Positions 721-32,114 of a stretch of 64,000 nucleotides of DNA are shown in pieces (within the stretch, counting starts at the first letter, position 1; each line of letters opens with the position of its first letter). The notes below the pieces were generated by a model. The model was not told the origin of the DNA. It ran no database searches and worked only from the letters and a program-made list of their open reading frames with translations. Made by a program: the position numbers and the translations under genes. This DNA is from Bacteroidota bacterium (GTDB lineage Bacteria > Bacteroidota > Ignavibacteria > UBA10030 > UBA6906): NCBI GenBank assembly GCA_030835135.1, contig JAUQWO010000075.1, forward strand, positions 399,330-463,329. The letters run 5' to 3'.

Positions 721-882
721 TCGCTCGTCTTCACCTTCTGAGGTTCATCTTCGTGGCCGCGGACGGAAGCCCGGCTCTACCGTCGAGTATCCTGCGGCGT
801 GTGCGCCGGGACCCTGGCATGGAGACGCCCGGTCCTTTCGCGCTTGACGTCTCACCCTGCCTTCTTCTCTCTTCTCTGCGAT

Positions 883-3648
883 CTACCCCTTCAACATCTC
901 CAGGCTCTTCTCCAGCTTCTCCACGGTCTGCGTGAATGCGTCCAGCTTCTCGCGCTCCTTGTCGACCACATCCTTCGGTGCGCGCGCCACGAAGCTCTCG
1001 TTCTCCAGCTTGCGCCGTACGCCATCCAGCAATCCGGAAACCCTGTCGATCTCCTTCTGGAGCCGCTGCCGTTCCACCTCGATGTCGATGAGCCCCTCGA
1101 GCGGCACGAACAGCTCTTCACCCTCCACGACGGCGCTGGCGGACAGCTTCGGCCGGGCGTTCTCTGCCGCGAACGTGAGCGATTTCACGCGGGCCAGGCG
1201 CTGGAGATATCCCTCGTACCGCTGGATGCTCTCCTGCGAACGGGTGAAGCCGAGCCGCATGATGAGCGTGATGTCCTTGGACGGCGCGATCCCCATCTCG
1301 CTCCTGATCGTGCGCACGGTCTCGATCACGTTCTGCACGAAGCGCATCTCCTTTTCCACATCCGTGGCGATGAAGGACGCGTCGGCCGGCATGAGCTGCG
1401 TGCGCATGATGGAATCCTCCGGCCCGCGGGGCCGGATGTTCTGCCAGAGCTCTTCCGTGACGAACGGCATGAGCGGATGGAGGAGGCGCAGGGCGGCATC
1501 GTACACGTCCAGCGCGCGGGAGACCACGGCCTGCTTGACGGCATCGGGTTCGGTGCCGTACAGCCGCGACTTCACCATTTCCAGGTACCAGTCGCAGTAG
1601 TCGTGCCAGAAGAAATCGTAGATCGTCTTCGCCACGCGGTTGATGTCGAACTGCGCCAGCGCCGCGGTGATGTCCGCGGTCGTGGAATGCAGACGCGACA
1701 GGATCCAGCGGTCGGCGAGGTCGAGATGGTCGAGGTTGCAGCCGCCATCGGTCGTACGCGGCGCTTCGCCCACCTGGTCGCGGTTCATGAGGATGAACCG
1801 GCCGGCATTCCAGATCTTGTTCGCGAAGTTCCGCCCGATCTCGTTCTTCTCCTTCGAGTACAGGATGTCCTGTCCGAGCGGCGCAAGATACAGGATCGTG
1901 AAGCGCACGGCGTCGGCCCCGTACTCCGCGATGAGGTCCAGCGGCTCGGGCGAGTTGCCGAGCGACTTGGACATCTTCCGCCCCTTGTCGTCGCGCACGA
2001 GACTGGTGAAGTACACGTCGCGGAACGGCACGTTCTTCGCCGGGTCGGTGCTGCCGGTGAACGACGGGCCGAACTTGAGTCCGGCCATGATCATGCGCGC
2101 GACCCAGAAGAAGATGATGTCGGGCGCGGTGACCAGCGTGTCGGTGGGGTAGAAGTAGTTCAGGTCCTTCACCTTCCCGAGCGCCTCCTGCTGCGGCCAG
2201 TCGTGCACGGAGAACGGCCAGAGCCACGAGGAGAACCACGTGTCGAGCACGTCCTCGTCCTGCTTCAGGTTCGCGCCGCCGCAGTGCGGACAGGTGGCGG
2301 GGGCGGTGCGGGCAACGATCGGCTGCGGACAGCCGGGCTTCCCGTCCTGTCCCTGGCAATACCACACCGGGATCCGGTGGCCCCACCAGAGCTGCCGCGA
2401 GATGCACCAGTCGCGGATGTTGGACATCCAGTGCTGGTACACCTTCGTGTGACGCTCGGGATAGAACTTGATGGTGCCGTTCTGCACCACTGCGAGCGCG
2501 GGCTCGGCAAGCGGCTTCATCTTCACGAACCACTGGTCCGACAGATACGGCTCGATCACCGTGTCGCACCGGTAGCAGCGTCCCACATTATGGACGTGCT
2601 CTTCGGTCTTGACGAGCAACCCTTCGTGTTCGAGGTCCTCGAGCACTTCCCTGCGCGCTTCGTACCGGTCCAGGTCCCGGTACTTCATCGGCACGTTCTC
2701 GTTGGTGCGCGCCGAGATGTCGAAGATGTTGATCTGCGGCAGGTTGTGGCGCTGCCCGATCTGGAAATCGTTCGGGTCGTGTGCCGGGGTCACCTTCACC
2801 ATGCCCGTGCCGAATGCCGGGTCCACGAAATCGTCGGCGATGATCGGGATCTCCCGGTCGGTGAGGGGGAGGTGGACCCTCTTGCCGATGAGGTGCTTGT
2901 ACCGTTCGTCCTTCGGGTTCACCGCTACCGCGGTATCACCGAGCATGGTCTCGGGGCGGGTGGTGGCGACAACGAGGAACTTCTTGGACGGGGTGGATCT
3001 TCCCTCGTGGAGGATCGGGTACTTGATATGCCACAGCTTACCATTGGACTCGGTGTAGTTCACCTCATCGTCGGAGATGGCCGTATGGTCCTTGGGGCAC
3101 CAGTTCACGATGTACTTGCCGCGGTAGATCAGTCCGTCTTCGTAGAGGCGGACGAACACCTCGCGCACGGCGGCCGACAGGCTCTCGTCCATGGTGAAGC
3201 GCTCGCGCTCCCAGTCGCAGGACGTGCCGAGGGTCCGGAGCTGTTTGATGATCACGCCGCCGTACTGCTTCCGCCATTCCCACACGCGTTCCACGAACTT
3301 CTCGCGTCCCAGATCGTGCCGGGTCTTCCCCTCTTTGTTGAGGGAGCGTTCCACGACGTTCTGCGTGGCGATGCCGGCGTGGTCGGTGCCGGGGATCCAG
3401 CACGATTCATGGCCGGTCATACGCTTGAAGCGGATGAATGCATCCTGCAGGGTATTGTTCAGGATATGCCCCATGTGCAGCACACCGGTCACATTGGGGG
3501 GCGGGATGACGATCGTGTAGGGTTTCTTGGCAGGATCAACCACGGCCCGGAAGAGGTGATGACCTTCCCAGAACGCGTACCACTTTTGTTCGGTTTCCTG
3601 AGGGTTATATGTCTTCGACAGTGCTGATGATGCAGCTTGGTCCGACAA
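883..3648 (-). CDS. valS: Valine--tRNA ligase
   Basis: Class I aminoacyl-tRNA synthetase that charges tRNA-Val and edits mischarged threonine, in the cytoplasm. The N-terminal catalytic signature PPPNVTGVLHMGH (HIGH class) lies near residue 55, and KMSKSLGN lies near residue 560 in the second half of the Rossmann fold. The editing domain lies between them, followed by the anticodon-binding region and a charged coiled-coil C-terminal arm typical of ValRS. At about 921 residues the length is normal. No ATG is available near the start: I prefer the TTG at 3648, which has GGAG six bases upstream; a TTG at 3660 would add four residues. A short GC hairpin separates it from the M23 peptidase gene upstream. 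Confidence 0.97.
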   Translation of the reverse strand: MSDQAASSALSKTYNPQETEQKWYAFWEGHHLFRAVVDPAKKPYTIVIPPPNVTGVLHMGHILNNTLQDAFIRFKRMTGHESCWIPGTDHAGIATQNVVERSLNKEGKTRHDLGREKFVERVWEWRKQYGGVIIKQLRTLGTSCDWERERFTMDESLSAAVREVFVRLYEDGLIYRGKYIVNWCPKDHTAISDDEVNYTESNGKLWHIKYPILHEGRSTPSKKFLVVATTRPETMLGDTAVAVNPKDERYKHLIGKRVHLPLTDREIPIIADDFVDPAFGTGMVKVTPAHDPNDFQIGQRHNLPQINIFDISARTNENVPMKYRDLDRYEARREVLEDLEHEGLLVKTEEHVHNVGRCYRCDTVIEPYLSDQWFVKMKPLAEPALAVVQNGTIKFYPERHTKVYQHWMSNIRDWCISRQLWWGHRIPVWYCQGQDGKPGCPQPIVARTAPATCPHCGGANLKQDEDVLDTWFSSWLWPFSVHDWPQQEALGKVKDLNYFYPTDTLVTAPDIIFFWVARMIMAGLKFGPSFTGSTDPAKNVPFRDVYFTSLVRDDKGRKMSKSLGNSPEPLDLIAEYGADAVRFTILYLAPLGQDILYSKEKNEIGRNFANKIWNAGRFILMNRDQVGEAPRTTDGGCNLDHLDLADRWILSRLHSTTADITAALAQFDINRVAKTIYDFFWHDYCDWYLEMVKSRLYGTEPDAVKQAVVSRALDVYDAALRLLHPLMPFVTEELWQNIRPRGPEDSIMRTQLMPADASFIATDVEKEMRFVQNVIETVRTIRSEMGIAPSKDITLIMRLGFTRSQESIQRYEGYLQRLARVKSLTFAAENARPKLSASAVVEGEELFVPLEGLIDIEVERQRLQKEIDRVSGLLDGVRRKLENESFVARAPKDVVDKEREKLDAFTQTVEKLEKSLEMLKG

Positions 3649-19010: not shown

Positions 19011-19844
19011 GTGAAAAAGTACTTCTCGTTCGTCAAAATTGAACATACGTTGTTCTCCCTCCCCCTTGTGTACGCAGGGGTGTTCCTTGCCTCGCGCGGT
19101 GCGTTCCCCGGATGGACACCACTCCTCCTCGTGCTCGCGGCTGCCACCGGTGCGCGCACGGTCGCGTTCGCGCTGAACAGGATCATCGACCGGCAGATCG
19201 ATGCGCGGAACCCGCGCACGGCCTCGCGCGACCTGCCCAGTGGCCGCATGTCGCTGATCGAAGCGGTCGGCGTGTTGGTGGCGGGACTCGGGATCTACTT
19301 CTGCTCGGCGTACTACCTGTCGTTCTTCTGTTTCGTGATGTCGCCGATCCCGCTCGTGATCTTCATCGTCTACCCGACGATGAAGCGGTTCACGCCGATG
19401 GCGCATTTCGGCGTGGGGCTCGGACTCGCCATGGGGCCGCTGGGAGGGTGGTTCGCGGTGTCGCCGTCGTTCGACACCATTCTCTCGCCGGCACTCCTCT
19501 CACTCTTCACCATGCTCTGGGTCGCAGGGTTCGATATCATCTATGCGACCCTCGATGAGGAATTCGACAAGAAGGCTTCGCTCTTCTCGTTCCCGTCGCG
19601 CTTCGGCAAGGAACGGGCCCTGCGCTATTCCGGGTACCTCCATGCCGCGGCGTTCGCCGTGCTGGCGGCGCTCTACGTGCAGGCGGACCTCTCCCGGTGG
19701 TCCTTCCCGCTGCTGATCGTCATGGGCGTCCTCCTGTACACCGAACAGAAGAAGGCGGAGGATGTGGAACTCGCCTTTTTCAGGATCAACGCCATTGCCG
19801 GATTCGCCGTGCTGCTCATGGTCCTTGTAGGAGTGCTCGTATGA
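19011..19844 (+). CDS. mqnP: UbiA-family prenyltransferase, probable MqnP of the futalosine pathway
   Basis: Integral membrane prenyltransferase of 277 residues with the two Asp-rich motifs of the family, NRIIDRQIDARN near residue 57 and DIIYATLDEEFDKK near 175, and about eight membrane segments. In sequence style it matches 4-hydroxybenzoate polyprenyltransferases. The surrounding genes make menaquinone by the futalosine route, so the natural acceptor is probably 1,4-dihydroxy-6-naphthoate rather than 4-hydroxybenzoate; that is inference. GTG start at 19011. Its stop overlaps the start of the UbiX gene (ATGA), so translation is coupled. Confidence 0.88.
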   Translation: MKKYFSFVKIEHTLFSLPLVYAGVFLASRGAFPGWTPLLLVLAAATGARTVAFALNRIIDRQIDARNPRTASRDLPSGRMSLIEAVGVLVAGLGIYFCSAYYLSFFCFVMSPIPLVIFIVYPTMKRFTPMAHFGVGLGLAMGPLGGWFAVSPSFDTILSPALLSLFTMLWVAGFDIIYATLDEEFDKKASLFSFPSRFGKERALRYSGYLHAAAFAVLAALYVQADLSRWSFPLLIVMGVLLYTEQKKAEDVELAFFRINAIAGFAVLLMVLVGVLV

Positions 19845-20392
19845 AGGTCGTCGTCGGGATCACCGGCTCGTCCGGTGCGGTGTATGCCCTGGATTTCCTC
19901 AAGAAGTGTCCGGACAGCAAATATCTGATCGTCAGCAAGTGGGGGAAGGTGCTGCTGAAGGATGAGCTGAAGATGAGCGAAAAGGACCTGGCGCCCTACG
20001 TGAAGCGCACGTTCTCCGACGAGGACCTCACCGCCCCGACGGCCTCGGGCTCGAACCGTTTTGACGCCTATGTGATCCTTCCTGCGTCCACCTCCACGAT
20101 CGGCAAGATCGCATCGGGTCTTGGCGACACGCTCATCACCCGCACCGCACAGGTGTGCCTGAAGGAGCGCATCCCGTTGATCATCTGCGTGCGCGAGACG
20201 CCGCTTTCGACCCTGACCCTGGAACAGTGTGCCCGGCTCTCGGGGTACGGTGCGACGATCATGCCGATCTCGCCGCCGTTGTATTTCGTGCCGGACACCG
20301 TGGACGCGTATGTCGGCGGATTCACCGACAAGGTACTCGGACAGATCGGTGTGCGGACATCGCCCGGCTGGCGCGAGGAGGAGTTCACGTGA
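19841..20392 (+). CDS. ubiX: UbiX-family flavin prenyltransferase
   Basis: Makes the prenylated FMN cofactor used by UbiD-type decarboxylases, from dimethylallyl phosphate and reduced FMN. The 183-residue flavodoxin-like protein starts VVVGITGSSGAVYALDFL. The family core is present at VILPASTSTIGKIASGLGDTL (written here as three linked motifs: PASTSTIGKIA, GLGDTL, RTAQVCLKE), with PLIICVRETPLSTL and PPLYFVP after it. It overlaps the prenyltransferase gene by four bases upstream and the UbiD gene by four bases downstream, so cofactor supply and use are made together. In futalosine organisms this member is called MqnM. Confidence 0.94.
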   Translation: MKVVVGITGSSGAVYALDFLKKCPDSKYLIVSKWGKVLLKDELKMSEKDLAPYVKRTFSDEDLTAPTASGSNRFDAYVILPASTSTIGKIASGLGDTLITRTAQVCLKERIPLIICVRETPLSTLTLEQCARLSGYGATIMPISPPLYFVPDTVDAYVGGFTDKVLGQIGVRTSPGWREEEFT

Positions 20393-22179
20393 AGGCGTCG
20401 GAATTCAGGACCGCCGGCGACTTCGCTCGCTATCTGGAGAGCGTGGGTGAACTCCTGCGCGTGCAGGAAGAGGTGGACCCGTATCTGGAGATCACCGAGA
20501 TCGCGCGGCGCGCGATCAAAGAACGCCGGCCGGCGATGCTGTTCGAGCGCGTGAAGGGGTCGGCGTATCCCGTTCTGGTGAACGCCCTGGCCAGCGATCT
20601 GCGGTGTGAATTGGCGTTGCAGAAGCATCCCGAGCAACTCGGGCAGGAGCTGATAGCATTCCTCGGCGACGCACTGCCGCCGAAGCCCGGCGCGGTGATG
20701 AAGCACAGGAAGCTCGCACGACGGTTCCTGTCAGCCCCCGTGAAGCGCGTCGCCACCGGCATGGCGCACCAGGTGGTGGAGAAACCGGCCCTCGGGCAGT
20801 TGCCGGTGCTGACGTGCTGGCCTGATGACGGCGGGAAGTTCATTACGCTCCCGCAGGTCGTTACGTACGACCCCCGCACGGGGAAACGGAACATGGGCAT
20901 GTACCGGATGCAGGTGTTCGATGATGCCACGACCGGCATGCACTGGCAGATCCAGAAGGGCGGTGGGTTCCATTATACGCAGGCGGAGAAACACGGGCGC
21001 CCGCTCGAACTTGCCGTCGCGATCGGCACCGACCCGGCACTGCTGATGGCCACGATCGCGGCCCTGCCCGAGAACATCGATGAGGCCATGTTCGCCGGGT
21101 TCCTCCGTGGCCAGCGCACCGAGTTCACGCGCGGGTCCAGCATCGGCATCGACGTGCCGGCACATGCGGAGTTCATTCTCGAGGGCATCGTCCGTCCCGG
21201 CGAGCGGCGCATGGAAGGCCCCTTTGGCGACCACTTCGGACACTATTCGCACGCCGCGGAGTTCCCGGTCTTTCATCTGAGCGCGGTCACGCATAAACGG
21301 AACCCGGTGTATCCGGCAACCGTTGTGGGGATCCCGCCGATGGAGGACAAGTATCTCGGCGATGCGACGCAGCTCGTGCTCGGGCCGCTGGCGCGGCTGA
21401 TCCATGCGGAGATCCGCGATCTGTGGGCGTATTATGAGGCGGGCTTCCATAACCTTCTCGTCGTGTCGGTGGATCAGCGCTACGCCAAGGAAGCCATGAA
21501 GACCGCGCTGGGACTCATGGGGATGTCGCAGCTCTCGCTGACCAAGTGCATCGTGCTGGTGAGCGAAGGCGTGAACGTCCGGAACTTCGATGAAGTCATG
21601 CGTGAGGTGCGCGACCAGTTCGACCCGCACCGCGACTTCCTGCTGATCCCGAAGGTCCCGTTGGACACGCTGGACTTCACCAGTTTCACGATGAACCTGG
21701 GGAGCAAGATGGTGTTGGATGCCACGCGCAAACAGCGTGCGCCAATGCCGGAACCGCGTGCGTCACGGCTGCCCTCGGTTGACGCGGTGCGTGCGCTGCG
21801 GGAGGTGGACCGGCGCATCGTGGACCTCCGGTTCGTGCACGAGACGATGCTGCTGGTGAAGGTCCGCGGCGAAGGGAAACCGGTCATCGATCAGCTCGTC
21901 CGCCATCCGGCGCTGGGGGGCGTGACGATGGTGGCGGCGGTGAGCGAGGACGTGGACCTGGACGACAAAGAGAACTATATCTGGGGCGTCTTTACGCGGT
22001 TCGACTGCGAGCGGGACATCCTGTTCACGCAGCAGGAACTCATAGGGATCAGCCCTGTTTATAAGGGTGTGATGGGCATCGATGCGACGTGGAAGCCGGG
22101 GTATCCTGCGGCGCTGACGATGCCGGAAGCGGTCGTGAAGGCCGTGGACGGCAAGTGGGGGCGGATAATTAAGAACTAA
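20389..22179 (+). CDS. mqnL: UbiD-family decarboxylase, probable MqnL
   Basis: Prenyl-FMN-dependent decarboxylase of 596 residues, longer than E. coli UbiD (about 500). The family core is evident: PVLTCWPDDGGKFITLP near residue 140, MGMYRMQVFDD near 170, the cofactor and metal region EGPFGDHFGHYS near 280, and VGIPPMEDKYLG near 315. The GTG at 20389 overlaps the ubiX stop and has GAGGAGG upstream. In this cluster the likely substrate is prenylated 1,4-dihydroxy-6-naphthoate, giving demethylmenaquinol; the assignment rests on context. A short AT-rich inverted repeat begins at the end of the gene. Confidence 0.9.
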   Translation: MKASEFRTAGDFARYLESVGELLRVQEEVDPYLEITEIARRAIKERRPAMLFERVKGSAYPVLVNALASDLRCELALQKHPEQLGQELIAFLGDALPPKPGAVMKHRKLARRFLSAPVKRVATGMAHQVVEKPALGQLPVLTCWPDDGGKFITLPQVVTYDPRTGKRNMGMYRMQVFDDATTGMHWQIQKGGGFHYTQAEKHGRPLELAVAIGTDPALLMATIAALPENIDEAMFAGFLRGQRTEFTRGSSIGIDVPAHAEFILEGIVRPGERRMEGPFGDHFGHYSHAAEFPVFHLSAVTHKRNPVYPATVVGIPPMEDKYLGDATQLVLGPLARLIHAEIRDLWAYYEAGFHNLLVVSVDQRYAKEAMKTALGLMGMSQLSLTKCIVLVSEGVNVRNFDEVMREVRDQFDPHRDFLLIPKVPLDTLDFTSFTMNLGSKMVLDATRKQRAPMPEPRASRLPSVDAVRALREVDRRIVDLRFVHETMLLVKVRGEGKPVIDQLVRHPALGGVTMVAAVSEDVDLDDKENYIWGVFTRFDCERDILFTQQELIGISPVYKGVMGIDATWKPGYPAALTMPEAVVKAVDGKWGRIIKN

Positions 22180-22205
22180 GAATGAAGAACTCAGAATTCT
22201 TAATT
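22167..22205. repeat. AT-rich inverted repeat within the menaquinone operon
   Basis: AATTAAGAA (22167-22175) and TTCTTAATT (22197-22205) form perfect 9-bp arms around a 21-base spacer containing two further AAGAA-like copies. It spans the mqnL stop codon and ends just before the ribosome site of the next gene. It looks like a dispersed intergenic repeat that could fold in the mRNA. Confidence 0.5.
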
Positions 22206-22221: not shown

Positions 22222-24096
22222 ATGCAATTTCGTGACAAGACCCTTGCGCCGATCTGGGACAAGGTCGAGCGCGGTGAGCGGCTGACGCTGGACGATGGGC
22301 TGACGCTGTACCGCACGCAGGACATCATCGGCCTTGGCCGCATGGCGCATGCCGTGCAGCGGCGGTGGAGCGGCGATGCGGTGTACTTCGTGTTGAATCA
22401 GAAGATCGAACACACGAACGTGTGCGTGCTGTCGTGCAAGTTCTGCGACTTCGCGGTGAAGAAAGGCGCACCCGGCGCGTACGAAATGACGTCGCAGGAC
22501 ATCCTTGCGAGACTCACGCCCGAGATCAAGGAAGTGCACATCACCGGCGGCATGCCCGCCGACTGGCCGTGGGAACGGTATCTGGATATCGTCCAGACCA
22601 TCCATCGTCATCTTCCGGATGCGGACGTCAAGGCGTTCACCGCCGTCGAGATCGACTTCTTCCACAAGAAATTCAAGATGTCCGTCGATGAGGTCCTCCG
22701 CCAGCTCAAGGCCGCTGGCGTGCGCACCATGCCCGGCGGCGGTGCCGAGGTCTTCTCCGAACGCGTACGGAAGCAGCTCTTCAATCAGAAGATCGGCGCG
22801 AAACCATGGCTGGAAGTGCATAAGGCGGCACACCGTCTCGGCATACCGACGAACAGCACCATGCTGTACGGACACATCGAGACGCTGGAGGAGCGACTGC
22901 AGCATATGATGCGTTTGCGCGAGACGCAGGATGAGACCGGCGGGTTCCTGACGTTCATCCCGCTCGCGTTCCAGCCGGGCAGCACCGGCATCAAGCCATC
23001 GAACCGGTACACGTCGGCGATCGACGACCTCAAGACCATTGCCATCTCACGCCTGATGCTGGACAACTTCCCGCACATCAAGGCGTACTGGGTGATGCTC
23101 ACCGAGGAGGTGGCGAGCGTGGCGCTGAACTTCGGCGCGGACGACATGGATGGCACCGTCGGCGGCGAGAAGATCGCCCACGACGCTGGCGCGATCAGTC
23201 CGATGGCCATGAAGAAGGACCAGCTCATCCGCATCATCCGCGATGCCGGCAAGATCCCGGTGGAGCGTGATGTCTATTATAATCCCATCCGGATCCATGC
23301 CGACAAGGTGATCGGCAAGATCCCGTACCTCAATTCGATCGCGTATCATGCGCACCTGCATGTGCCGGAGTACAAGATCCTGCCTGTCCGTCCGCGGCGC
23401 ATGGGCATGCTGAGCGACCAGGGGATGATCGACGCGGGTCTGTTCTCCGTGATGAACTACGTGCACCAGTCGGACCGGCTGGACCTGCTGGGGTACGGCC
23501 TCGCATCGCGTGATCAGGTGAAGAGCGTGATGCTGTTCTCGAAGGAGGGCTGGCGCGATCTGGACGGGAAGCGGATCGGCATCATCGACGATACGGCGAC
23601 CTCGGTGCAGCTCCTGCGCGTCCTGCTGCACAAGCGCTACGGCGTTGCCGCACGCTTCGAACGCCTCCATGGCGGCGTGAACGACCTGTCGGGCTTCGAT
23701 GCCGTGCTGTTGATCGGCGACGAAGCACTGCAGGCGAACAAGAACGGACTTCCCGGCTTCGATCTCGTGTACGACCTCGCCCGCGAATGGTACGAATGGC
23801 AGAAGCTGCCGTTCGTGTTCGCCGTGTGGGCCGTGAAGAAGAGCATGACCCCGGAGGACAGGGCGCGACTCACGGATGCGCTCGTCGGATCGCTCGAGAA
23901 AAGCTCCACGGACTATGCCGCGGTCGGACGGGTGCATGGCCGACGCATCGGACTCACGGATGCGGAGACCGCGGAGTACCTGGACGGGTTCAACTACTCC
24001 CTGGGGGAGAGAGAACGGGAAGCGATCAGGAAGTTCGCGGCGCTGGTGGGGGAGGAAGAGCAGAGCAGGGTGAAAGGTGAGCACAAGAGCACGTGA
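22222..24096 (+). CDS. mqnE: Fused aminofutalosine synthase and chorismate dehydratase (MqnE-MqnA)
   Basis: Two futalosine enzymes in one 624-residue chain. Residues 1 to about 360 are a radical SAM aminofutalosine synthase (MqnE), with the 4Fe-4S motif C68-x3-C72-x2-C75, VHITGGMPADWPW near 105, MPGGGAEVFSERV near 170 and LNFGADDMDGTVGGEK near 302. Residues about 363-624 are a chorismate dehydratase (MqnA), beginning VIGKIPYLNSIAYH and continuing with DAGLFSVMNY and RIGIIDDTATSVQLLR. MqnA makes 3-enolpyruvylbenzoate from chorismate, which MqnE joins to SAM-derived adenosine, so the fusion links consecutive steps. These proteins are normally separate. The ATG at 22222 with GGAGAG upstream is preferred over a TTG at 22204. 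Confidence 0.92.
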   Translation: MQFRDKTLAPIWDKVERGERLTLDDGLTLYRTQDIIGLGRMAHAVQRRWSGDAVYFVLNQKIEHTNVCVLSCKFCDFAVKKGAPGAYEMTSQDILARLTPEIKEVHITGGMPADWPWERYLDIVQTIHRHLPDADVKAFTAVEIDFFHKKFKMSVDEVLRQLKAAGVRTMPGGGAEVFSERVRKQLFNQKIGAKPWLEVHKAAHRLGIPTNSTMLYGHIETLEERLQHMMRLRETQDETGGFLTFIPLAFQPGSTGIKPSNRYTSAIDDLKTIAISRLMLDNFPHIKAYWVMLTEEVASVALNFGADDMDGTVGGEKIAHDAGAISPMAMKKDQLIRIIRDAGKIPVERDVYYNPIRIHADKVIGKIPYLNSIAYHAHLHVPEYKILPVRPRRMGMLSDQGMIDAGLFSVMNYVHQSDRLDLLGYGLASRDQVKSVMLFSKEGWRDLDGKRIGIIDDTATSVQLLRVLLHKRYGVAARFERLHGGVNDLSGFDAVLLIGDEALQANKNGLPGFDLVYDLAREWYEWQKLPFVFAVWAVKKSMTPEDRARLTDALVGSLEKSSTDYAAVGRVHGRRIGLTDAETAEYLDGFNYSLGEREREAIRKFAALVGEEEQSRVKGEHKST

Positions 24097-24126
24097 GGAA
24101 CGAAGAGTGAAGATCGAGGGTTGCCC

Positions 24127-25230
24127 ATGGAGCAGATGAAACTGGAAGAGATCTACGGCAAAGTGCGCGAAGGGAAGCGGATCACGAGGGAGGAAGGGCT
24201 GGCGCTCCTGCAGCACGGCGAGTTGCTGGACCTTGCCGACGTCGCCAATGAGGTGCGCTTCCGCATCAATCCGGATCCGCACGTCACCTTCGTGGTCGAC
24301 ACGAATCCGAACTACACGAACGTCTGCACCATCGACTGCATCTTCTGCGCGTTCTACCGGCACCCGGGCGAAGAGGGCGTGTACACGCACTCGGTGGACC
24401 ATATGATCGCGAAGTTCAAGGAGTCGGCGTCGAACGGCGTGACCACGGTGCTCTTGCAGGGCGGTGTGAACCCCGAACTGCCGTTCGAGTATTATCTCGA
24501 CCTCGTGCGGCGTACCGTGAAGGAAGTACCGGCGATCCACCCCCATTTCTATTCGACATCGGAAGTGCTTGGCATGGCTGCCGTGTCGGGCCTGAGCGTG
24601 CCGGACGTGCTGAAGCAGTTGTGGGACGCGGGTCTGCGGACGATCCCCGGCGGCGGGGCGGAGATCCTGTCGGACCGCGTCAAGAAGAAGATCAGCAGCA
24701 GGAAGGGTTCGAGTCAGGACTGGCTGGACGTGATGCGTGAAGCGCACAAGCTGGGTTTCAAGAGCACGGCGACGATGATGTATGGCCATCTTGAGCAGGA
24801 CGAGGACATCATCGAGCACCTCGATGTGGTCCGTTCGCTGCAGGATGACTACCACGGGTTCACGGCGTTCGTACCGTGGAGCTTCAAGCCTGGGAACACG
24901 CCGCTGGAGAAGATCATTCCGCACTACGCAACGCCCACGCGCTATCTGCAGATGCTTGCGCTGTCGCGCATCTATCTGGACAATGTCCCGCACATCCAGG
25001 CGTCGTGGTTCTCGGAAGGGAAGAAGGCCGGACAGATCGCGCTGCACTTCGGGGCCGATGATTTCGGCGGGACGCTGCAGGAAGAGAACGTGCATGCCGC
25101 GGCGAACTTCGTGAACACCACGAACACCGAGGAATGCATCCAGATGATCCATGATGCCGGGTTCGTGGCCGCGCAGCGGAACACCACGTATGATATCCTC
25201 GGCATTTACAAGCCGGCGAGCGCGGCGTAG
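24127..25230 (+). CDS. mqnC: Cyclic dehypoxanthine futalosine synthase
   Basis: Radical SAM enzyme that cyclises dehypoxanthine futalosine in menaquinone synthesis. The cluster motif is TNVCTIDCIFCAF (C-x3-C-x2-C) near residue 60. It is followed by VLLQGGVNPELPFEYYLD, IPGGGAEILSDRVKKK near 175 and LHFGADDFGGTLQEENVH near 310, all characteristic of MqnC rather than MqnE. The length is 367 residues. The ATG at 24127 has GAGGG six bases upstream. It lies 30 bases after the MqnE-MqnA fusion, with a terminator beyond it, so it closes the operon. Confidence 0.95.
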   Translation: MEQMKLEEIYGKVREGKRITREEGLALLQHGELLDLADVANEVRFRINPDPHVTFVVDTNPNYTNVCTIDCIFCAFYRHPGEEGVYTHSVDHMIAKFKESASNGVTTVLLQGGVNPELPFEYYLDLVRRTVKEVPAIHPHFYSTSEVLGMAAVSGLSVPDVLKQLWDAGLRTIPGGGAEILSDRVKKKISSRKGSSQDWLDVMREAHKLGFKSTATMMYGHLEQDEDIIEHLDVVRSLQDDYHGFTAFVPWSFKPGNTPLEKIIPHYATPTRYLQMLALSRIYLDNVPHIQASWFSEGKKAGQIALHFGADDFGGTLQEENVHAAANFVNTTNTEECIQMIHDAGFVAAQRNTTYDILGIYKPASAA

Positions 25231-25380: not shown

Positions 25381-26226
25381 CTACACCAGTTCTATCGCCG
25401 GAACGCCCTGCACCACCCCCCGCGCCGCCGCTTTCTCGAACAAGAGCTTCAACCCTGCCAGCCCCTTCTCGCCCATGTCGATCGTCAGATCGCTCACGTA
25501 CATCTTCACGAACTTCTCGCCGAGCTGATAGTTGATGCCGCGGCCCCACTGCATCGCGTAGGGGATCGCTTCGTCCTGATGCTTGTAGCCGTAGGCGATG
25601 CTCTCCTTCAGCCCGCGCGAGAGCTTCACGGCGAGGTCCATGCCGAGGTCCTTGCGCACGACGTCGAGTCCGAGCGGCAGGGGAAGCCCCTTGCTTTCTG
25701 TGTCCCAGAACTCACCGAAATCCAGGATCTTGTTGTAGCCCAGCGATTGATACGTGATCTGTCCTTCGTGGATAAGAAGGCCGGCATCCACCTCGCCCTT
25801 GTCCACCGCGTCCATGATCGCGTCGAACGGCATGTCCACGTGACGGATGCCGTCCGTGAATGTCCGGAACAGCAGCGTGGCCGTCGTCAGCGGGCCGGGC
25901 GTACCGACCAGCTTGCCTTTCAGTTCGTCGAGTGAGCGGTACTTGCGTGAGATGATCACCGGGCCGTACCCTTCGCCCATGCTTGCGCCGGTACGCATCA
26001 CCCAGTAGTGCTGTGCAACGGCGGGGAACGCGTGGGCGGAGATGGCGGTCACTTCCAGCTCCGCTCTCATCGCGCGCACGTTCAGCGACTGGATGTCTTC
26101 GAGCATGTGCTCGATCTGAATGCCCTCCAGTTTCACTTTGCCGCTGGCCAGTCCGTAGAACATGAATGCATCGTCGGGGTCGGGACTGTGGCCCACGCGG
26201 ATGATGCGGTCTGGGTTCGTTGTCAT
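25381..26226 (-). CDS. mqnD: 1,4-dihydroxy-6-naphthoate synthase
   Basis: Lyase of the periplasmic-binding fold that releases 1,4-dihydroxy-6-naphthoate from cyclic dehypoxanthine futalosine, the last ring-forming step of the pathway. The 281-residue protein has the MqnD hallmarks GHSPDPDDAFMFYGLA at residues about 12-27, EVTAISAHAFPAV near 57 and GYGPVIISRKY near 84, and the DAGLLIHEGQITYQ region near 145. The ATG at 26226 has AGGAGACAA upstream and overlaps the menG stop by four bases (ATGA). It is transcribed toward mqnC, so the pathway is split over two convergent units. Confidence 0.95.
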   Translation of the reverse strand: MTTNPDRIIRVGHSPDPDDAFMFYGLASGKVKLEGIQIEHMLEDIQSLNVRAMRAELEVTAISAHAFPAVAQHYWVMRTGASMGEGYGPVIISRKYRSLDELKGKLVGTPGPLTTATLLFRTFTDGIRHVDMPFDAIMDAVDKGEVDAGLLIHEGQITYQSLGYNKILDFGEFWDTESKGLPLPLGLDVVRKDLGMDLAVKLSRGLKESIAYGYKHQDEAIPYAMQWGRGINYQLGEKFVKMYVSDLTIDMGEKGLAGLKLLFEKAAARGVVQGVPAIELV

Positions 26227-26912
26227 TTGTCTCCTGTGTAGATCGTTGCGATGCCGAATGTCAGTCGTTCCTGACGCACGGTGCGGAAGCCCGCCGTGCG
26301 CAGGATCGTGAGGAAGTCGTTGCCCTCGGGAAACTTCATCACCGTGTCGGGCAGATATGTGTATGCCCCCGGGTCCCTGGAGATGAGCCGGCCGACGATG
26401 GGCAGGATCCGCCGGAAGTAGAAGAAATACAATTGCTTGAACGGGAACGCCGAGGGGCGTGAGAATTCGAGGACCATGATCCGTCCCCCGGGCCGGAGTA
26501 CGCGGCACATTTCGCGGAGGCCTTGCGGCAGGTCCGCGAAGTTGCGCGCCCCGAATGCCACGATGGAGGCGTCGAAGCTGCCATCGGGGAACGCAAGGTG
26601 CTCGGCCTCGCCGGACTGCAGCGTGATCACTCCATCCAGCCCCCGCTTCGTCAGTTTTTCCCGGCCAAAGGCCAGCATGTTTTCGGCGATGTCCACCCCC
26701 ACGACCGCCGACGGTTCGAGACGGAGCGAGGCGATGGCCAGGTCGGCCGTGCCGGTGGCGACATCGAGGATGCGCTTTGGCTGGAGGTCTCGCAGCGTCG
26801 CGATCGCTTTTCTCCGCCAATACAGGTCAACGCCCCCGCTCAGAAGGTGATTGAGCAGGTCGTAGCGGGCGGCGATAGCGTTGAACAGGGTTTGGACTTT
26901 TGAGTCAGACAA
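26223..26912 (-). CDS. menG: Demethylmenaquinone methyltransferase
   Basis: SAM-dependent UbiE/MenG-family methyltransferase that performs the final C-methylation of menaquinone. The 229-residue protein has the opening FNAIAARYDLLNHLLSGGVD, the SAM-binding ILDVATGTADLA near residue 48, FGARNFADLPQGLREMCRVL near 117 and GGRIMVLEFSRP near 143. The only usable start is a TTG at 26912, and no Shine-Dalgarno sequence is visible before it, so expression may be modest. It is coupled to mqnD by a four-base overlap, consistent with a menaquinone rather than ubiquinone role. Confidence 0.94.
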   Translation of the reverse strand: MSDSKVQTLFNAIAARYDLLNHLLSGGVDLYWRRKAIATLRDLQPKRILDVATGTADLAIASLRLEPSAVVGVDIAENMLAFGREKLTKRGLDGVITLQSGEAEHLAFPDGSFDASIVAFGARNFADLPQGLREMCRVLRPGGRIMVLEFSRPSAFPFKQLYFFYFRRILPIVGRLISRDPGAYTYLPDTVMKFPEGNDFLTILRTAGFRTVRQERLTFGIATIYTGDK

Positions 26913-26953
26913 GGGAAAAGGGCAAAAGGAAATGGGAATCGCTGAGCTGTTCC

Positions 26954-26982
26954 AAGATACGAAAACCGGCTCTCACATCCAA
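26954..26982 (-). promoter_or_regulatory. Predicted promoter for menG-mqnD
   Basis: On the minus strand TTGGAT (26977-26982) and TATCTT (26954-26959) are 17 bases apart, about 41 bases before the TTG start of menG. Confidence 0.45.
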
Positions 26983-27043
26983 CGCACCCGTCGCCGATCC
27001 CGGCCTTTGTGCGCCGAGCCCCCGTCCTTTTCCCGTCCACGTT

Positions 27044-27072
27044 TTGCGTTTTTGCATCACATTCCGTACTCT
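27044..27072 (+). promoter_or_regulatory. Predicted promoter giving a leaderless aroB mRNA
   Basis: TTGCGT (27044-27049) and TACTCT (27067-27072) are 17 bases apart. The aroB ATG begins only six bases after the -10 box and has no ribosome site before it. Confidence 0.45.
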
Positions 27073-27078
27073 ACTTGT

Positions 27079-28164
27079 ATGAAACGTATTATACCCGTCC
27101 GTCTGCCCGGGGGAAGGGACCGCTCATACCGGATCCAGATCGCACCCGGGGCCCTCGCCCAGCTCCCCGCCCTCGTTGCTTCGCGATGGAAAGGCCGCGG
27201 CGTCTATGTCATCACGGATGCCAACGTGAACCGGCTCTACGGCCGGACGGTGATGCATGGGCTCCGGGACGCAGGCTTCGATCCTATCCTGATCGACGTC
27301 CCTGCCGGTGAGGAATCGAAATCGATCGGCATCTATTATGGAGTGCTCACGGCGCTCCTCGAGAATAAGGTCCGCCGCGGCAGCGTGATCATCGCCCTGG
27401 GTGGCGGTGTGGTGGGCGACCTCGCGGGGTTCGCGGCGGCCAGCGTGCTCCGCGGCGTGGAGTTCGTGCAGGTCCCGACGAGCCTCCTCGCACAGGTGGA
27501 CAGCAGTGTGGGAGGGAAGGTGGGGATCGACCACGATCTCGGCAAGAACCTGATCGGAGCCTTCCATCAGCCCTCGCTCGTGGTGATCGACCCTCTGGTG
27601 CTGAAGACCCTTCCGCCCCGCGAGTTCAGGAACGGACTTGCGGAGATCTTCAAGATCGCCGCTGCGCTGGACCCGAAGTTCTTTGCCCTGCTTGCCCGGA
27701 ACACCGCGAAGCTCCGGCCCACGGAAACGCCCTTCCTCACGCGCGTGATCGCCACCGCCGTCGGGCTGAAAGCCGCTGTCGTGGAGAAGGACGAACGCGA
27801 GGCCGGACTGCGCAAGGTCCTCAATCTCGGCCACACCCTCGGTCACGCGATCGAGACGGCAAGCGACTTCGCGTTGCGCCACGGCGAGACCGTTGCGATC
27901 GGGATGGTCCTCGAGGCACGCATGGCAGCGACCATGGGACTCCTGAGCATCGATCATCTCATGAGGATCACGCAGGCGCTCGAAGCCGTGGGCCTGCCGA
28001 CGCGCATGCCCGGCACACTGAACATGAAGCGCGTGCATTCTGCGCTCGCCCTGGACAAGAAGGTGAAGGACGGCATGCCGCTCTTTGTCCTCCTGAAAGC
28101 GGTCGGCTCATCCGCTATCGATGTGCCCGTGCCCGACGCACTCATCCGGTCCGTCCTCGCATGA
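27079..28164 (+). CDS. aroB: 3-dehydroquinate synthase
   Basis: Second shikimate-pathway enzyme: NAD- and metal-dependent conversion of DAHP to 3-dehydroquinate. The NAD loop GGGVVGDLAGFAAA lies near residue 112, followed by QVPTSLLAQVDSSVGGKVG near 140, the metal ligands NGLAEIFK and LGHTLGHAIE, and LRHGETVAIGM near 270. The length is 361 residues. The ATG at 27079 has no Shine-Dalgarno sequence but stands right behind a -10 box. It leads a tight run of shikimate genes; the next gene overlaps its stop (ATGA). Confidence 0.96.
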   Translation: MKRIIPVRLPGGRDRSYRIQIAPGALAQLPALVASRWKGRGVYVITDANVNRLYGRTVMHGLRDAGFDPILIDVPAGEESKSIGIYYGVLTALLENKVRRGSVIIALGGGVVGDLAGFAAASVLRGVEFVQVPTSLLAQVDSSVGGKVGIDHDLGKNLIGAFHQPSLVVIDPLVLKTLPPREFRNGLAEIFKIAAALDPKFFALLARNTAKLRPTETPFLTRVIATAVGLKAAVVEKDEREAGLRKVLNLGHTLGHAIETASDFALRHGETVAIGMVLEARMAATMGLLSIDHLMRITQALEAVGLPTRMPGTLNMKRVHSALALDKKVKDGMPLFVLLKAVGSSAIDVPVPDALIRSVLA

Positions 28165-29627
28165 TCATCGTCCCCATCGTCGGTCCGACACTCGCGGACG
28201 CACGGCGTCAGATCCGGACATCCCGCCGCGACGCGGACATGTTCGAATTCCGCCTCGACCTCTGTCGCGATCCGGAGCTCATCCGAGCGATCCGCTCCAG
28301 CCGCATCCCCGTGATCGCAACGTGCCGCCCCGTGCGCGAGGGCGGACGGTTCGATGGCGGTGAAGGAGACCGGTTCGAACGTCTCGGCGATGCGCTCCGT
28401 GCCGGTGCCGCATACATTGACTGTGAGCTGGATGCGGTGAAGGAGTTCCGTGCCTGGTGCAGTGCGCGGAAGCTCAGGCCACGGCTCATCGTGTCGAGGC
28501 ACGATTTCAAGGACGGCCACGCGGATGTACTGAAGGTCTACAAACAACTGCGCGCAGCGCGCGCCGATATCATCAAGTTCGCCTATACCGCCACCGATGC
28601 ATGGCAGATCGCCGCAGCACGCACCTTCCTCCAGCGCGCTGCACGCGACCGCCAGCGTGCCATCGCCATAGCGATGGGCGAAGCGGGGGAGGCAAGCCGC
28701 ATCCTCTACCGCGTGTTCGGCGGGTGGGCCACGTTCGGTGCGGCAGGCGAGAACGAAGGGTCTGCCCCCGGCCAGCTCACCGCTGCCGTGCTGAGGCATG
28801 TGTTCCTCGCGCACAAGCGGACGCCGCGGACGAAGGTCTTCGGACTTGTGGGGGACCCGGTCCGTCAGAGCAAAGGCATCTACGTTCATAATCCGCTCTA
28901 TGCGAAGGCGGGGTTCAACGGCATCTACGTCCGTTTCCCTGTCGGCGATCTCGACCGGTTCATGAAGGAATGTGGGCCCTGGGTGAGCGGCTGCAGCGTG
29001 ACGCTGCCGCACAAGTCCGCGATGGCACGCCATTGCACGTCATTCATCGGGAGTGCCGCCATGATCGGCGCGGTCAATACCGTTGTGCGACAGGGGCGGC
29101 GGTGGATCGGGGCGAACACCGATGCAGGTGCCGCGCTGGATGCCATCGAGAAGCAGTTCCCGGTGCGCGGCGAACGGATGGTGATCCTCGGCGCAGGCGG
29201 GGCCGCGCGTGCGATCGCGGTGGAAGGTGCCCGGCGGGGTGCGATGGTCACCATCGCGAACAGGTCGGAGGACAGGGCGCGCGGCCTTTCGAGCGAACTG
29301 GATGTTGCGTGGTGCCGCACCGATGCGCTCGCTGCCGCGCAGCCGGCGATCCTCGTGAATACGACGCCGGTCGGCATGTGGCCCGCCATGGACGCCGTGC
29401 CCGTGCCCTCGATCCCCCCGTGTGTCCGTCTTGCGTTCGATGCGATCTATAACCCGGCGGTGACGCGGTTCCTCGCGATGGCCGCGGAGCAGGGCGCGCG
29501 GACCGTCAGCGGAGCGGCGATGTACGCCGGGCAGGCGGTGGACCAGATCCGCATCCTTACCGGTGTGCGTGTGAGCGGCGCCACTGTCATGCGCACGTTC
29601 CAGACGGCGATCCGGCAGCACCCCTGA
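28161..29627 (+). CDS. aroDE: Fused 3-dehydroquinate dehydratase (type I) and shikimate dehydrogenase
   Basis: A 488-residue bifunctional enzyme for the third and fourth shikimate steps. Residues 1 to about 220 are a type I dehydroquinase: the catalytic His is in IVSRHDFKDG and the Schiff-base Lys in ADIIKFAYTA. Residues about 225-488 are the shikimate dehydrogenase: VFGLVGDPVRQSKGIYVHNPLY, the catalytic Lys in SVTLPHKSAM, the Asp in GANTDAGAALDA and the NADP loop VILGAGGAARAIA. This mirrors the plant DHD-SDH arrangement, and fused AroDE is uncommon in bacteria. The substrate loop RQSKG replaces the usual HSLSP pattern. It overlaps aroB by four bases. Confidence 0.94.
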   Translation: MIIVPIVGPTLADARRQIRTSRRDADMFEFRLDLCRDPELIRAIRSSRIPVIATCRPVREGGRFDGGEGDRFERLGDALRAGAAYIDCELDAVKEFRAWCSARKLRPRLIVSRHDFKDGHADVLKVYKQLRAARADIIKFAYTATDAWQIAAARTFLQRAARDRQRAIAIAMGEAGEASRILYRVFGGWATFGAAGENEGSAPGQLTAAVLRHVFLAHKRTPRTKVFGLVGDPVRQSKGIYVHNPLYAKAGFNGIYVRFPVGDLDRFMKECGPWVSGCSVTLPHKSAMARHCTSFIGSAAMIGAVNTVVRQGRRWIGANTDAGAALDAIEKQFPVRGERMVILGAGGAARAIAVEGARRGAMVTIANRSEDRARGLSSELDVAWCRTDALAAAQPAILVNTTPVGMWPAMDAVPVPSIPPCVRLAFDAIYNPAVTRFLAMAAEQGARTVSGAAMYAGQAVDQIRILTGVRVSGATVMRTFQTAIRQHP

Positions 29628-29639
29628 TCTTAGGATGAA

Positions 29640-30905
29640 ATGCCACCACCACGCACCATAGAGACCATCGGAACAGTGAGCGGGACCATGCGCGTCCCGG
29701 GCTCGAAAAGCATCGCGAACCGCGCGCTGGTATGCGCGGCGCTGGCCGGGGGCGATTCGGTGATCCGGAATATCTCGGACAGCACCGACACGACGATGAT
29801 GCTGAACGCGCTGGACCAGATGGGCGTGCTGGCGCGGGCAGCGGGTTCCGAGGTCCGCGTGAGCGGCACGGGTGGCGCGTTGTACGCGCCGAAATTCCCG
29901 GTGCCAGTCGGTAATGCGGGCACGACCCTCCGTTTCCTGATCTCGGTGGCGGCGCGTGCGAAAGGCGTGACCACGTTCGAAGGTTCGGAACGGATGGCCG
30001 GGAGGCCGATCACACCGCTCGTGGATGCGCTCGCCGGACTCGGTGTCCGCGTGGATGTGGCCGTGCCCATGTCGCGGTACAGTGTCCATGGCGGGTCGAT
30101 CAAAGGTGGCCGCACCTCGGTGAGCGGCGAGAAGAGCTCACAGTTCGTGTCGTCGTTGCTGCTTGCAGCGCCGGGACTCCAGCACGGGTTGGACCTCGCC
30201 GTTCCCGGCGTGGTGTCGTCCGCGCCGTATGTGACCATGACCCTGCGCGTGATGAAGGACTTTGGCGTGGAGGTGCAGGTGCGGGACGGAGGGTTCGAGG
30301 TCTCCCGTGAAGCACGGTATTTCCCCGCGGAGTACACCGTTGAAGCGGACGCATCCGGAGCGACATATCCATTCGCTGCCGCGGCGATCGTCGGGGGCGC
30401 GGTCCGGGTGCCTGACCTCGCACAGGATTCGATGCAAAGCGATGCCGGACTCGTGGACGTGCTTGTCCGGATGGGGTGCACGGTCCGGTGGGAACGCGAT
30501 GCGGCGGTGATGGAGAGACATGGGACCTTGCGCGGCGTCGAGGTGGACATGAACGCGATGCCTGATGCCGTGCCGGCACTCGTCGCGGCGGCGCTGTTCG
30601 CCGAGGGCAGCACGCGCATCCGCAATGTTGCGCATCTGCGCTACAAGGAGTCGGACCGGCTCGGCACGCTTGCTGAACAGCTCCGGCTGCTCGGCGCGAA
30701 CATCACGGTGCTGGACGACGGGCTGGACATCCACCCTGTGCCATTGCACGGGGCGCAACTCGATCCGCACGAGGACCACCGTCTTGCGATGATGTTCGGA
30801 CTCATCGGCCTCCGGGTCCCGGGTGTAGTGGTGGAGGATCCCATGTGCGTTCGCAAATCCTATCCCCGCTTCTGGGAGGAACTCGACAGGCTTTCTCATT
30901 CATAG
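29640..30905 (+). CDS. aroA: 3-phosphoshikimate 1-carboxyvinyltransferase (EPSP synthase)
   Basis: Adds enolpyruvate from PEP to shikimate 3-phosphate. The 421-residue protein shows the expected motifs: PGSKSIANRALVCAAL near residue 18, PVGNAGTTLRFLIS near 90, the shikimate-binding QFVSSLLLAAP, the LRYKESDRLGT stretch near 338 and EDHRLAMMFGLIGL near 378. It follows aroDE by 12 bases and precedes aroC by 18. Shikimate kinase, which makes its substrate, is not in the window. Confidence 0.96.
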   Translation: MPPPRTIETIGTVSGTMRVPGSKSIANRALVCAALAGGDSVIRNISDSTDTTMMLNALDQMGVLARAAGSEVRVSGTGGALYAPKFPVPVGNAGTTLRFLISVAARAKGVTTFEGSERMAGRPITPLVDALAGLGVRVDVAVPMSRYSVHGGSIKGGRTSVSGEKSSQFVSSLLLAAPGLQHGLDLAVPGVVSSAPYVTMTLRVMKDFGVEVQVRDGGFEVSREARYFPAEYTVEADASGATYPFAAAAIVGGAVRVPDLAQDSMQSDAGLVDVLVRMGCTVRWERDAAVMERHGTLRGVEVDMNAMPDAVPALVAAALFAEGSTRIRNVAHLRYKESDRLGTLAEQLRLLGANITVLDDGLDIHPVPLHGAQLDPHEDHRLAMMFGLIGLRVPGVVVEDPMCVRKSYPRFWEELDRLSHS

Positions 30906-30923
30906 ACCGGCAGAACCACGACC

Positions 30924-32114
30924 ATGGCAGGCAACACCTTCGGCAGATATTTCCGCATCATGACATTCGGCGAGAGCCACGGCCCCGCACTTGGCGTGGT
31001 GATGGATGGCGTGCGTCCCGGGCTGCGGTTCAGCACGACAGCGATCCAGAAGGAACTGGACCGTCGCCGGCCGGGGCAGAGCAAAGTTACGACCCCGCGC
31101 AACGAACCCGACCGCGTGGAAGTGCTGAGCGGCGTGTTCGAAGGGAAGACGACCGGCATGCCGATCTGCATGATCATCCGCAACACGGACCAGCGACCGG
31201 CGGCGTACGAGAAGATCAAGAGCATGTTCCGCCCGGGCCATGCCGGCTATACGTATCTGGCCAAATACGGCATCGTGGATTACCGGGGTGGCGGACGGTC
31301 GTCGGGCCGGGAGACCGCTGCACGTGTTGCGGCGGGGGCGTTCGCGAAGGAGTACCTCCAGGAACGGGGGATCTCCATTCTGGCGCATACGATGGAGGTC
31401 GGTGGCATCGTTGCCGCGCAGTTCGACCCGTCGGTGATCGAAGAGAATCCGCTCCGCTGTGCCGATCCCGATGCGGCCAGGGCAATGGAGGATGCGGTGA
31501 TGCAGGCGCGGGATGAAGGCGACTCGCTCGGTGGCATCGTCGAGATCCGCGTGAACGGGCTTCCGCCGGGGCTCGGCGACCCGGTGTTCGACCGGCTGAA
31601 CGCAGACCTGGCGCACGCGATGATGTCGATCGGGGCAGTGAAGGGCGTGGAATTCGGGAGTGGCTTCGCGGCCGCGCGCATGAAGGGGAGCCAGAACAAC
31701 GATCCGATCTATGTCGAAGCGGCATCGGGGCGCGTGCGGACCCGCACCAACAATGCGGGCGGGATGGCCGGCGGCATCACCAACGGCGAAGAGCTCGTGA
31801 TGCGCATCGCCGTCAAACCGACGTCCTCGATCAGGAAGGAACAGGAGACCGTCACGGTGGACGGCGAGCCGGCGCGCATCACCGTGCACGGGCGGCACGA
31901 TCCCTGCATCTGTCCGCGCGTGGTGCCGGTCGCGGAATCGATGGCCGCGCTCACGATCATGGATCATCTGACGCGCCAGCGGTTGCTGCGCGGTCCGAAG
32001 GGGAAGAAGGCACGGAGCGAAACGGTGGAACTGATCGACCGGGATCTCAGGGTGCTCCGGATGCTGCGCAAGCATCTGTCGGCCCCCCTCGGAAAACGCG
32101 TGCGCACAAGGTAA
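30924..32114 (+). CDS. aroC: Chorismate synthase
   Basis: FMN-dependent enzyme that forms chorismate from EPSP. The 396-residue chain contains GESHGPALGVVMDGVRPGL near residue 14, RRRPGQSKVTTPRNEPD, RPGHAGYTYLAKYG near 100 and the FMN-binding GGGRSSGRETAARVAAG near 120, plus the later RTRTNNAGGMAGGITNGE. Chorismate is also the direct substrate of the MqnA domain encoded 8 kb upstream, so this operon feeds both aromatic amino acids and menaquinone. Confidence 0.97.
   Translation: MAGNTFGRYFRIMTFGESHGPALGVVMDGVRPGLRFSTTAIQKELDRRRPGQSKVTTPRNEPDRVEVLSGVFEGKTTGMPICMIIRNTDQRPAAYEKIKSMFRPGHAGYTYLAKYGIVDYRGGGRSSGRETAARVAAGAFAKEYLQERGISILAHTMEVGGIVAAQFDPSVIEENPLRCADPDAARAMEDAVMQARDEGDSLGGIVEIRVNGLPPGLGDPVFDRLNADLAHAMMSIGAVKGVEFGSGFAAARMKGSQNNDPIYVEAASGRVRTRTNNAGGMAGGITNGEELVMRIAVKPTSSIRKEQETVTVDGEPARITVHGRHDPCICPRVVPVAESMAALTIMDHLTRQRLLRGPKGKKARSETVELIDRDLRVLRMLRKHLSAPLGKRVRTR

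Follow-up and report, generated by a model that had tools for sequence, protein, structure and literature searches.

The locus examined here raises the question of whether two successive enzymes of menaquinone synthesis, MqnE and MqnA, are carried on one polypeptide, and if so, how such a chain arose and what it might do. In the futalosine pathway, an alternative route to vitamin K2 (menaquinone) that is studied as a drug target, MqnA converts chorismate to 3-enolpyruvylbenzoate, and MqnE then combines this product with the adenosyl part of S-adenosylmethionine (SAM) to give aminofutalosine. The pathway is the menaquinone route of Helicobacter, Campylobacter, and Chlamydia (PMC3937554).

Within the window, that is, the whole stretch of 64,000 nucleotides that was analysed, a single open frame on the + strand (22222-24096), designated mqnEA, runs uninterrupted through a chain of 624 residues. 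The frame is already open from a TTG at 22204, and orthologues favour the ATG at 22222 as the start. Residues 1-361 (22222-23304, + strand) make up a radical SAM aminofutalosine synthase domain with C68, C72, and C75 and a CofH_C region, as judged from TIGR03700, the match to the solved structure 6xi9, and alignment. TIGR03700, the NCBIfam equivalog model for MqnE, scored 474.4 bits over residues 11-356, which is over its curated cut-off of 434.55, and the NCBIfam models for MqnC and CofH fell below their own cut-offs on the same part of the protein. The chorismate dehydratase domain occupies residues 364-624 (23311-24093, + strand), based on PF02621, the match to 7an9, and conservation. In Pfam terms, the order of domains is Radical_SAM (62-229), CofH_C (241-356), and VitK2_biosynth (PF02621, 364-609), the last with an E value of 1.3e-46 and 159.6 bits against a gathering score of 26. 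The closest PDB entries by sequence are MqnE from Pedobacter (6xi9, aligned over residues 10-358) and Streptomyces MqnA, SCO4506 (7ahr/2nxo, over 383-611). The join itself comes down to residues 362-363 (23305-23310, + strand), placed by alignment and by predicted strands on either side (355-358 and 363-366); separate MqnE homologues stop at the position of residues 359-361, and the region held in common with separate MqnA begins at 364. A sequence-only reading of this DNA had proposed such a fusion, and both the NCBIfam and Pfam domain searches and the conserved frame of the orthologues bear it out. The radical SAM motif C68-x3-C72-x2-C75 is present as that reading described it, and its second domain, said to begin near residue 363 with IGKIPYLNS, had the right coordinates, with the start now placed at 364.

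Structure prediction is consistent with two complete enzymes. An AlphaFold2 model of the fusion, built from 78 aligned sequences, had a mean pLDDT of 91.9 and a pTM of 0.90, and the model of a Kapaibacterium orthologue with a longer spacer reached 90.5 and 0.89. Residues 1-362 of the model matched solved MqnE (6xi9) with Z 43.7, and residues 360-614 matched solved MqnA (7an9) with Z 31.7. Since the whole of the MqnE structure and nearly the whole of the MqnA structure are matched, the join has left neither domain truncated, in keeping with the earlier suggestion of a full chorismate dehydratase domain. Furthermore, the C-terminal domain is closer to solved MqnA chains (Z 29-32) than to MqnD (2czl, Z 23.7). 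In the model, only four residues separate the last MqnE strand (355-358) from the first MqnA strand (363-366), and the linker is thus about 4 residues long, or 7 in the Kapaibacterium type. By our own estimate, a chain of 360 plus 260 residues whose domain placement was undetermined would be expected to have a pTM of about 0.6-0.7. Because the value of 0.90 exceeds this, a defined two-domain arrangement is predicted, with the domains tightly joined.

Residues at conserved positions speak to function. Across fused and separate proteins, 69 MqnE positions are conserved (C68, C72, C75, and 66 others), along with 22 MqnA positions that include N371, T460, S461, G499, D500, W523, and W536. N371, the Asn of the [YF][LIVM]N motif, occurs in 49 of 49 fused and 14 of 14 separate rows of the alignment. 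The genome offers little by way of substitutes. Apart from the fusion it has no other mqnE, the only other MqnE-like frame being MqnC, and it encodes three PF02621 proteins, namely the fusion, a candidate MqnD, and a third paralogue. This third protein (L003:1420-2253, - strand; G000:C59), which sits beside trmD/rplS-like frames and is conserved across the taxonomic order, was considered as a spare MqnA and set aside: the conserved Asn was lacking in 10 of the 10 sequences compared, and the protein is present in relatives that have no mqnE or mqnC match. Since the genome holds neither a second mqnE nor another plausible mqnA, the fusion is most likely the organism's only MqnE and MqnA. Taken together, domain content and conservation make it highly probable that mqnEA encodes a bifunctional enzyme that catalyses both opening steps of the futalosine pathway, fused once from an overlapping gene pair of the Chloroflexota kind. 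The C-terminal domain would dehydrate chorismate to 3-enolpyruvylbenzoate, which the N-terminal radical SAM domain would then join with the adenosyl part of SAM to yield aminofutalosine. The benefit of the fusion may be a 1:1 supply of the two activities and the closeness of their sites.

An argument can be made that the join is a product of sequencing or assembly, or a frame error peculiar to a single genome, given that the window comes from a contig-level assembly of 88 contigs. The sequence-only reading had named separate mqnA and mqnE genes in close relatives, together with signs of an assembly join, as the outcome that would overturn it. The relatives point the other way: the fused gene recurs in 44 of the 60 genomes compared from this order (our own genome counted), always with E values of 2.9e-247 or better. 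These orthologues are free of stops and 59-82% identical over the aligned part; in two of them a contig end truncates the gene or breaks its frame. None of the 44 fusion-bearing genomes showed a complete free mqnE, and their other radical SAM match (about 35% identity) is MqnC. We reject an artefact as vanishingly improbable because the orthologues, drawn from dozens of separately assembled genomes in several families, carry the identical in-frame join with no internal stop. Conservation of this kind exceeds chance by a wide margin, and the join is genuine, ancient, and conserved. Another reading accepts the chain and holds that one of its domains is no longer catalytic, for example, that MqnA survives solely as a chorismate-binding part or as a stabiliser of MqnE. 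The distance from characterised enzymes leaves some room for this, as the MqnA domain of the fusion shares only about 27% identity with solved MqnA. Yet every fused row has the YLN Asn, the TS, GD, DL, and W...VFAVW positions are kept, and the genome has no alternative MqnA candidate, all of which make a lost activity very improbable. We therefore retain the reading of a bifunctional MqnE-MqnA chain.

Whether the two activities are also physically coupled is a further matter. Under direct channelling, an idea raised in the sequence-only reading, 3-enolpyruvylbenzoate would move straight out of the MqnA pocket into the MqnE barrel and never enter the bulk solution. Consecutive steps in one chain speak for such a mechanism, as do a linker this short and the confident relative placement of the domains in both models (pTM 0.90 and 0.89). 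In addition, junction residues in the fusions are altered relative to separate proteins and conserved among themselves, with NP[LI] following ERDxxY. However, gene fusions often arise without channelling, and separate, translationally coupled genes suffice in Chloroflexota and others. On balance we regard channelling as a tentative proposal, with the odds leaning against it. The same reserve applies to the more specific idea, which we consider rather doubtful, that rigid domain packing, maintained by the fused-only junction ERDx[YF]YNP[LI], might serve direct delivery into the radical SAM barrel.

The bifunctional chain has a restricted distribution. In a sample of the phylum, 14 of 395 genomes carried the fusion, 12 from the order and 2 from another family of the class. 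Other members of the phylum have a separate mqnE, which mqnA adjoins in two families (f10 and f22). As the earlier reading remarked, MqnE and MqnA are normally separate proteins. We also scanned about 85,000 species genomes with a DNA pattern linking MqnE motifs to the start of MqnA. It returned 108 stretches, comprising 72 in-frame fusions and 36 non-fusions; the spacer of the in-frame fusions was 42 nt in 65 and 51 nt in 7. When a very similar earlier form of the pattern was checked locally, it picked up 26 of the 30 loci in which the fusion was known at that point. The pattern is therefore sensitive for this type of fusion, but an unrelated fusion built on other motifs could escape it. The fused records were titled Ignavibacteria, Ignavibacteriales, Kapaibacterium, Chlorobi, Bacteroidetes, or Bacteroidota, with one each from KSB1, Deltaproteobacteria, and Syntrophaceae. 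Phylum-wide searches found the fusion in 6 of 82 KSB1 genomes, in none of the 35 MqnE-bearing genomes among 301 Chloroflexota, and in none of the 31 MqnE-bearing genomes among 246 Actinomycetota. In the phylum of the Syntrophaceae genome, there were 2 fusions among 142 MqnE-bearing genomes of 297, and 3 in 149 genomes of its order. Nearly all fusions thus belong to Ignavibacteria and Kapaibacteria; the remainder come from one KSB1 subgroup and from three genomes of the Syntrophales type.

Several candidates from these searches were dismissed on inspection. Long Chloroflexota frames (G736 and L148) carry MqnE and MqnA as separate frames, a Pedobacter hit (L080) was a chance pattern match in the MqnE tail, and an 898-aa frame that resembled a triple fusion (L064/G007) is interrupted by Ns and switches frame inside MqnA. 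Long Actinomycetota frames were also discarded, as one or two stops separate the domains. In five such genomes (G1344, G1298, G1402, G1409, and G1388), mqnE and mqnA lie in the same frame with only those 1-2 stop codons between them, a state close to an independent fusion. A different fusion of futalosine enzymes also came to light: genomes from the phylum of the Syntrophaceae record encode MqnE and MqnC in a single chain of about 725-750 aa (L174:904-3150, - strand; L175:1093-3267, + strand; also L172:2126-5305 and L173:957-4109). This chain has two Radical_SAM and two CofH_C domains in a CofGH-like layout, and in L175 a separate mqnA follows.

The trees point to a single origin of the MqnE-MqnA fusion. 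The tree of MqnE domains groups all 55 fused rows into a single clade (SH-aLRT 97), with the separate MqnE of Chloroflexota as its sister (99). In the tree of MqnA domains, built separately, the fused clade has a support of 81, only moderate and from a quick method, and its sister is again the separate Chloroflexota genes (100). Present-day gene pairs suggest how the join could have come about. Eighteen of 28 separate mqnE-mqnA pairs overlap by 11 nt, the mqnA start lying within the final few codons of mqnE. Between the MqnE motif ERD and the MqnA motif G-x-I, these 11-nt-overlap pairs span 40 nt, with mqnA in the +1 frame, against 42 nt in frame 0 in the fusions. A single fusion event probably took place in an overlapping pair like that of Chloroflexota today, in which a net change of +2 nt at the overlap would have removed the stop from the frame and brought both genes into one frame, and the fused gene would then have been retained in the line of Ignavibacteria and Kapaibacteria. 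The KSB1 and Syntrophales-type copies fall inside the fused clade, which suggests that the fused gene probably reached these genomes by transfer. Contamination of the metagenome-assembled genomes is another possible source of these copies.

The genomic neighbourhood of mqnEA is that of a futalosine-pathway cluster, in which Pfam and NCBIfam searches place mqnC, mqnD, and late genes alongside mqnE and mqnA. Upstream, on the same strand and tightly spaced or overlapping, lie genes for a UbiA-type, MqnP-like prenyltransferase (19011-19844, +; PF01040, with TIGR01475 over cut-off and the MqnP models below theirs), a UbiX-type flavin prenyltransferase (19841-20392, +; TIGR00421 over cut-off), and a UbiD-type menaquinone biosynthesis decarboxylase of the SCO4490 type (20371-22179, +; TIGR03701 over cut-off). 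About 25 nt past the fusion, mqnC begins, encoding cyclic dehypoxanthinyl futalosine synthase (24121-25230, +; TIGR03699 over cut-off). Its frame is open straight from the mqnEA stop (24097-25230) and is the same frame, as it is in two relatives (L005 and L031); in other relatives, mqnC is in a different frame from mqnEA. On the opposite strand are a second PF02621 protein (25525-26310, -; 202 bits), which is MqnD by context, and a UbiE/MenG-type methyltransferase (26223-26912, -; TIGR01934 over cut-off). A homologue of the MqnD candidate, 49% identical, directly follows mqnC in a Chloroflexota locus (L184). No MqnB, whether a futalosine hydrolase or an MTAN-type nucleosidase, was recognised in the whole genome, although the pathway is otherwise represented: TIGR03664 and PF01156 gave no match, and PF01048 matched only two purine nucleoside phosphorylases (G000:C71:12677-13414 and G000:C18:90788-91507). 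This leaves a gap in the pathway between the product of the fusion and MqnC, a step that may be carried out by an unrecognised enzyme. Methylacidiphilum has likewise been reported to lack mqnB (PMC6688271). A shikimate cluster of aroB, an aroD-aroE fusion (28161-29627), aroA, and aroC (26881-32114) adjoins the menaquinone genes, and the makers of chorismate thereby lie next to the enzyme whose MqnA domain would consume it. Elsewhere in the window, two long frames of 942 and 230 aa (799-3627 and 49-741, both +) lack any Pfam match.

Because mqnEA naturally unites the enzymes for both initial committed steps of the futalosine pathway, coupling between the chorismate dehydratase and radical SAM reactions can be tested directly on one polypeptide, and the fusion may aid structural work on the two-enzyme complex. 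It is also a clean evolutionary marker, whose single origin can be traced back to a pair of overlapping genes, and is useful for tracking transfer among Ignavibacteria, KSB1, and Syntrophales-type genomes; Ignavibacteria and the relatives that carry it are little-studied bacteria of soil, groundwater, and lakes. A full-text search of the open-access literature found no published description of an MqnE-MqnA fusion, and automatic annotation in public domain-architecture listings may already show it. Each domain comes from a family that is already well known; the novelty lies in the fusion of the two, in how widely it extends, and in its having arisen once.

Comparison with known systems places the fusion among them. 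It shares with MqnE (TIGR03700; Pedobacter heparinus 6xi9/6xig) the whole N-terminal domain, including the radical SAM motif and the CofH_C region, at about 40% identity (Z 43.7), but its chain runs on without a stop into MqnA. With MqnA (SCO4506: 2nxo, 7ahr, 7an5-9; DR0370: 2i6e, 6o9a), it has the fold and the conserved residues in common (Z about 29-32, 25-30% identity). Unlike separate MqnA, the domain in the fusion lacks a start Met, its first strand following about 4 residues after the last MqnE strand. The overlapping pairs of Chloroflexota have the same gene order and, in the trees of both domains, stand closest to the fused proteins, yet they make two proteins: mqnA begins in the +1 frame before mqnE has ended, with an 11-nt overlap. 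Single chains that unite steps of a cofactor or quinone pathway have precedents. CofGH/FbiC, the FO synthase, does so for a cofactor, although it joins two radical SAM domains. Plant PHYLLO (MenF-D-C-H; PMC6189191) likewise gathers quinone steps in one chain, but its enzymes are those of the classical Men pathway.
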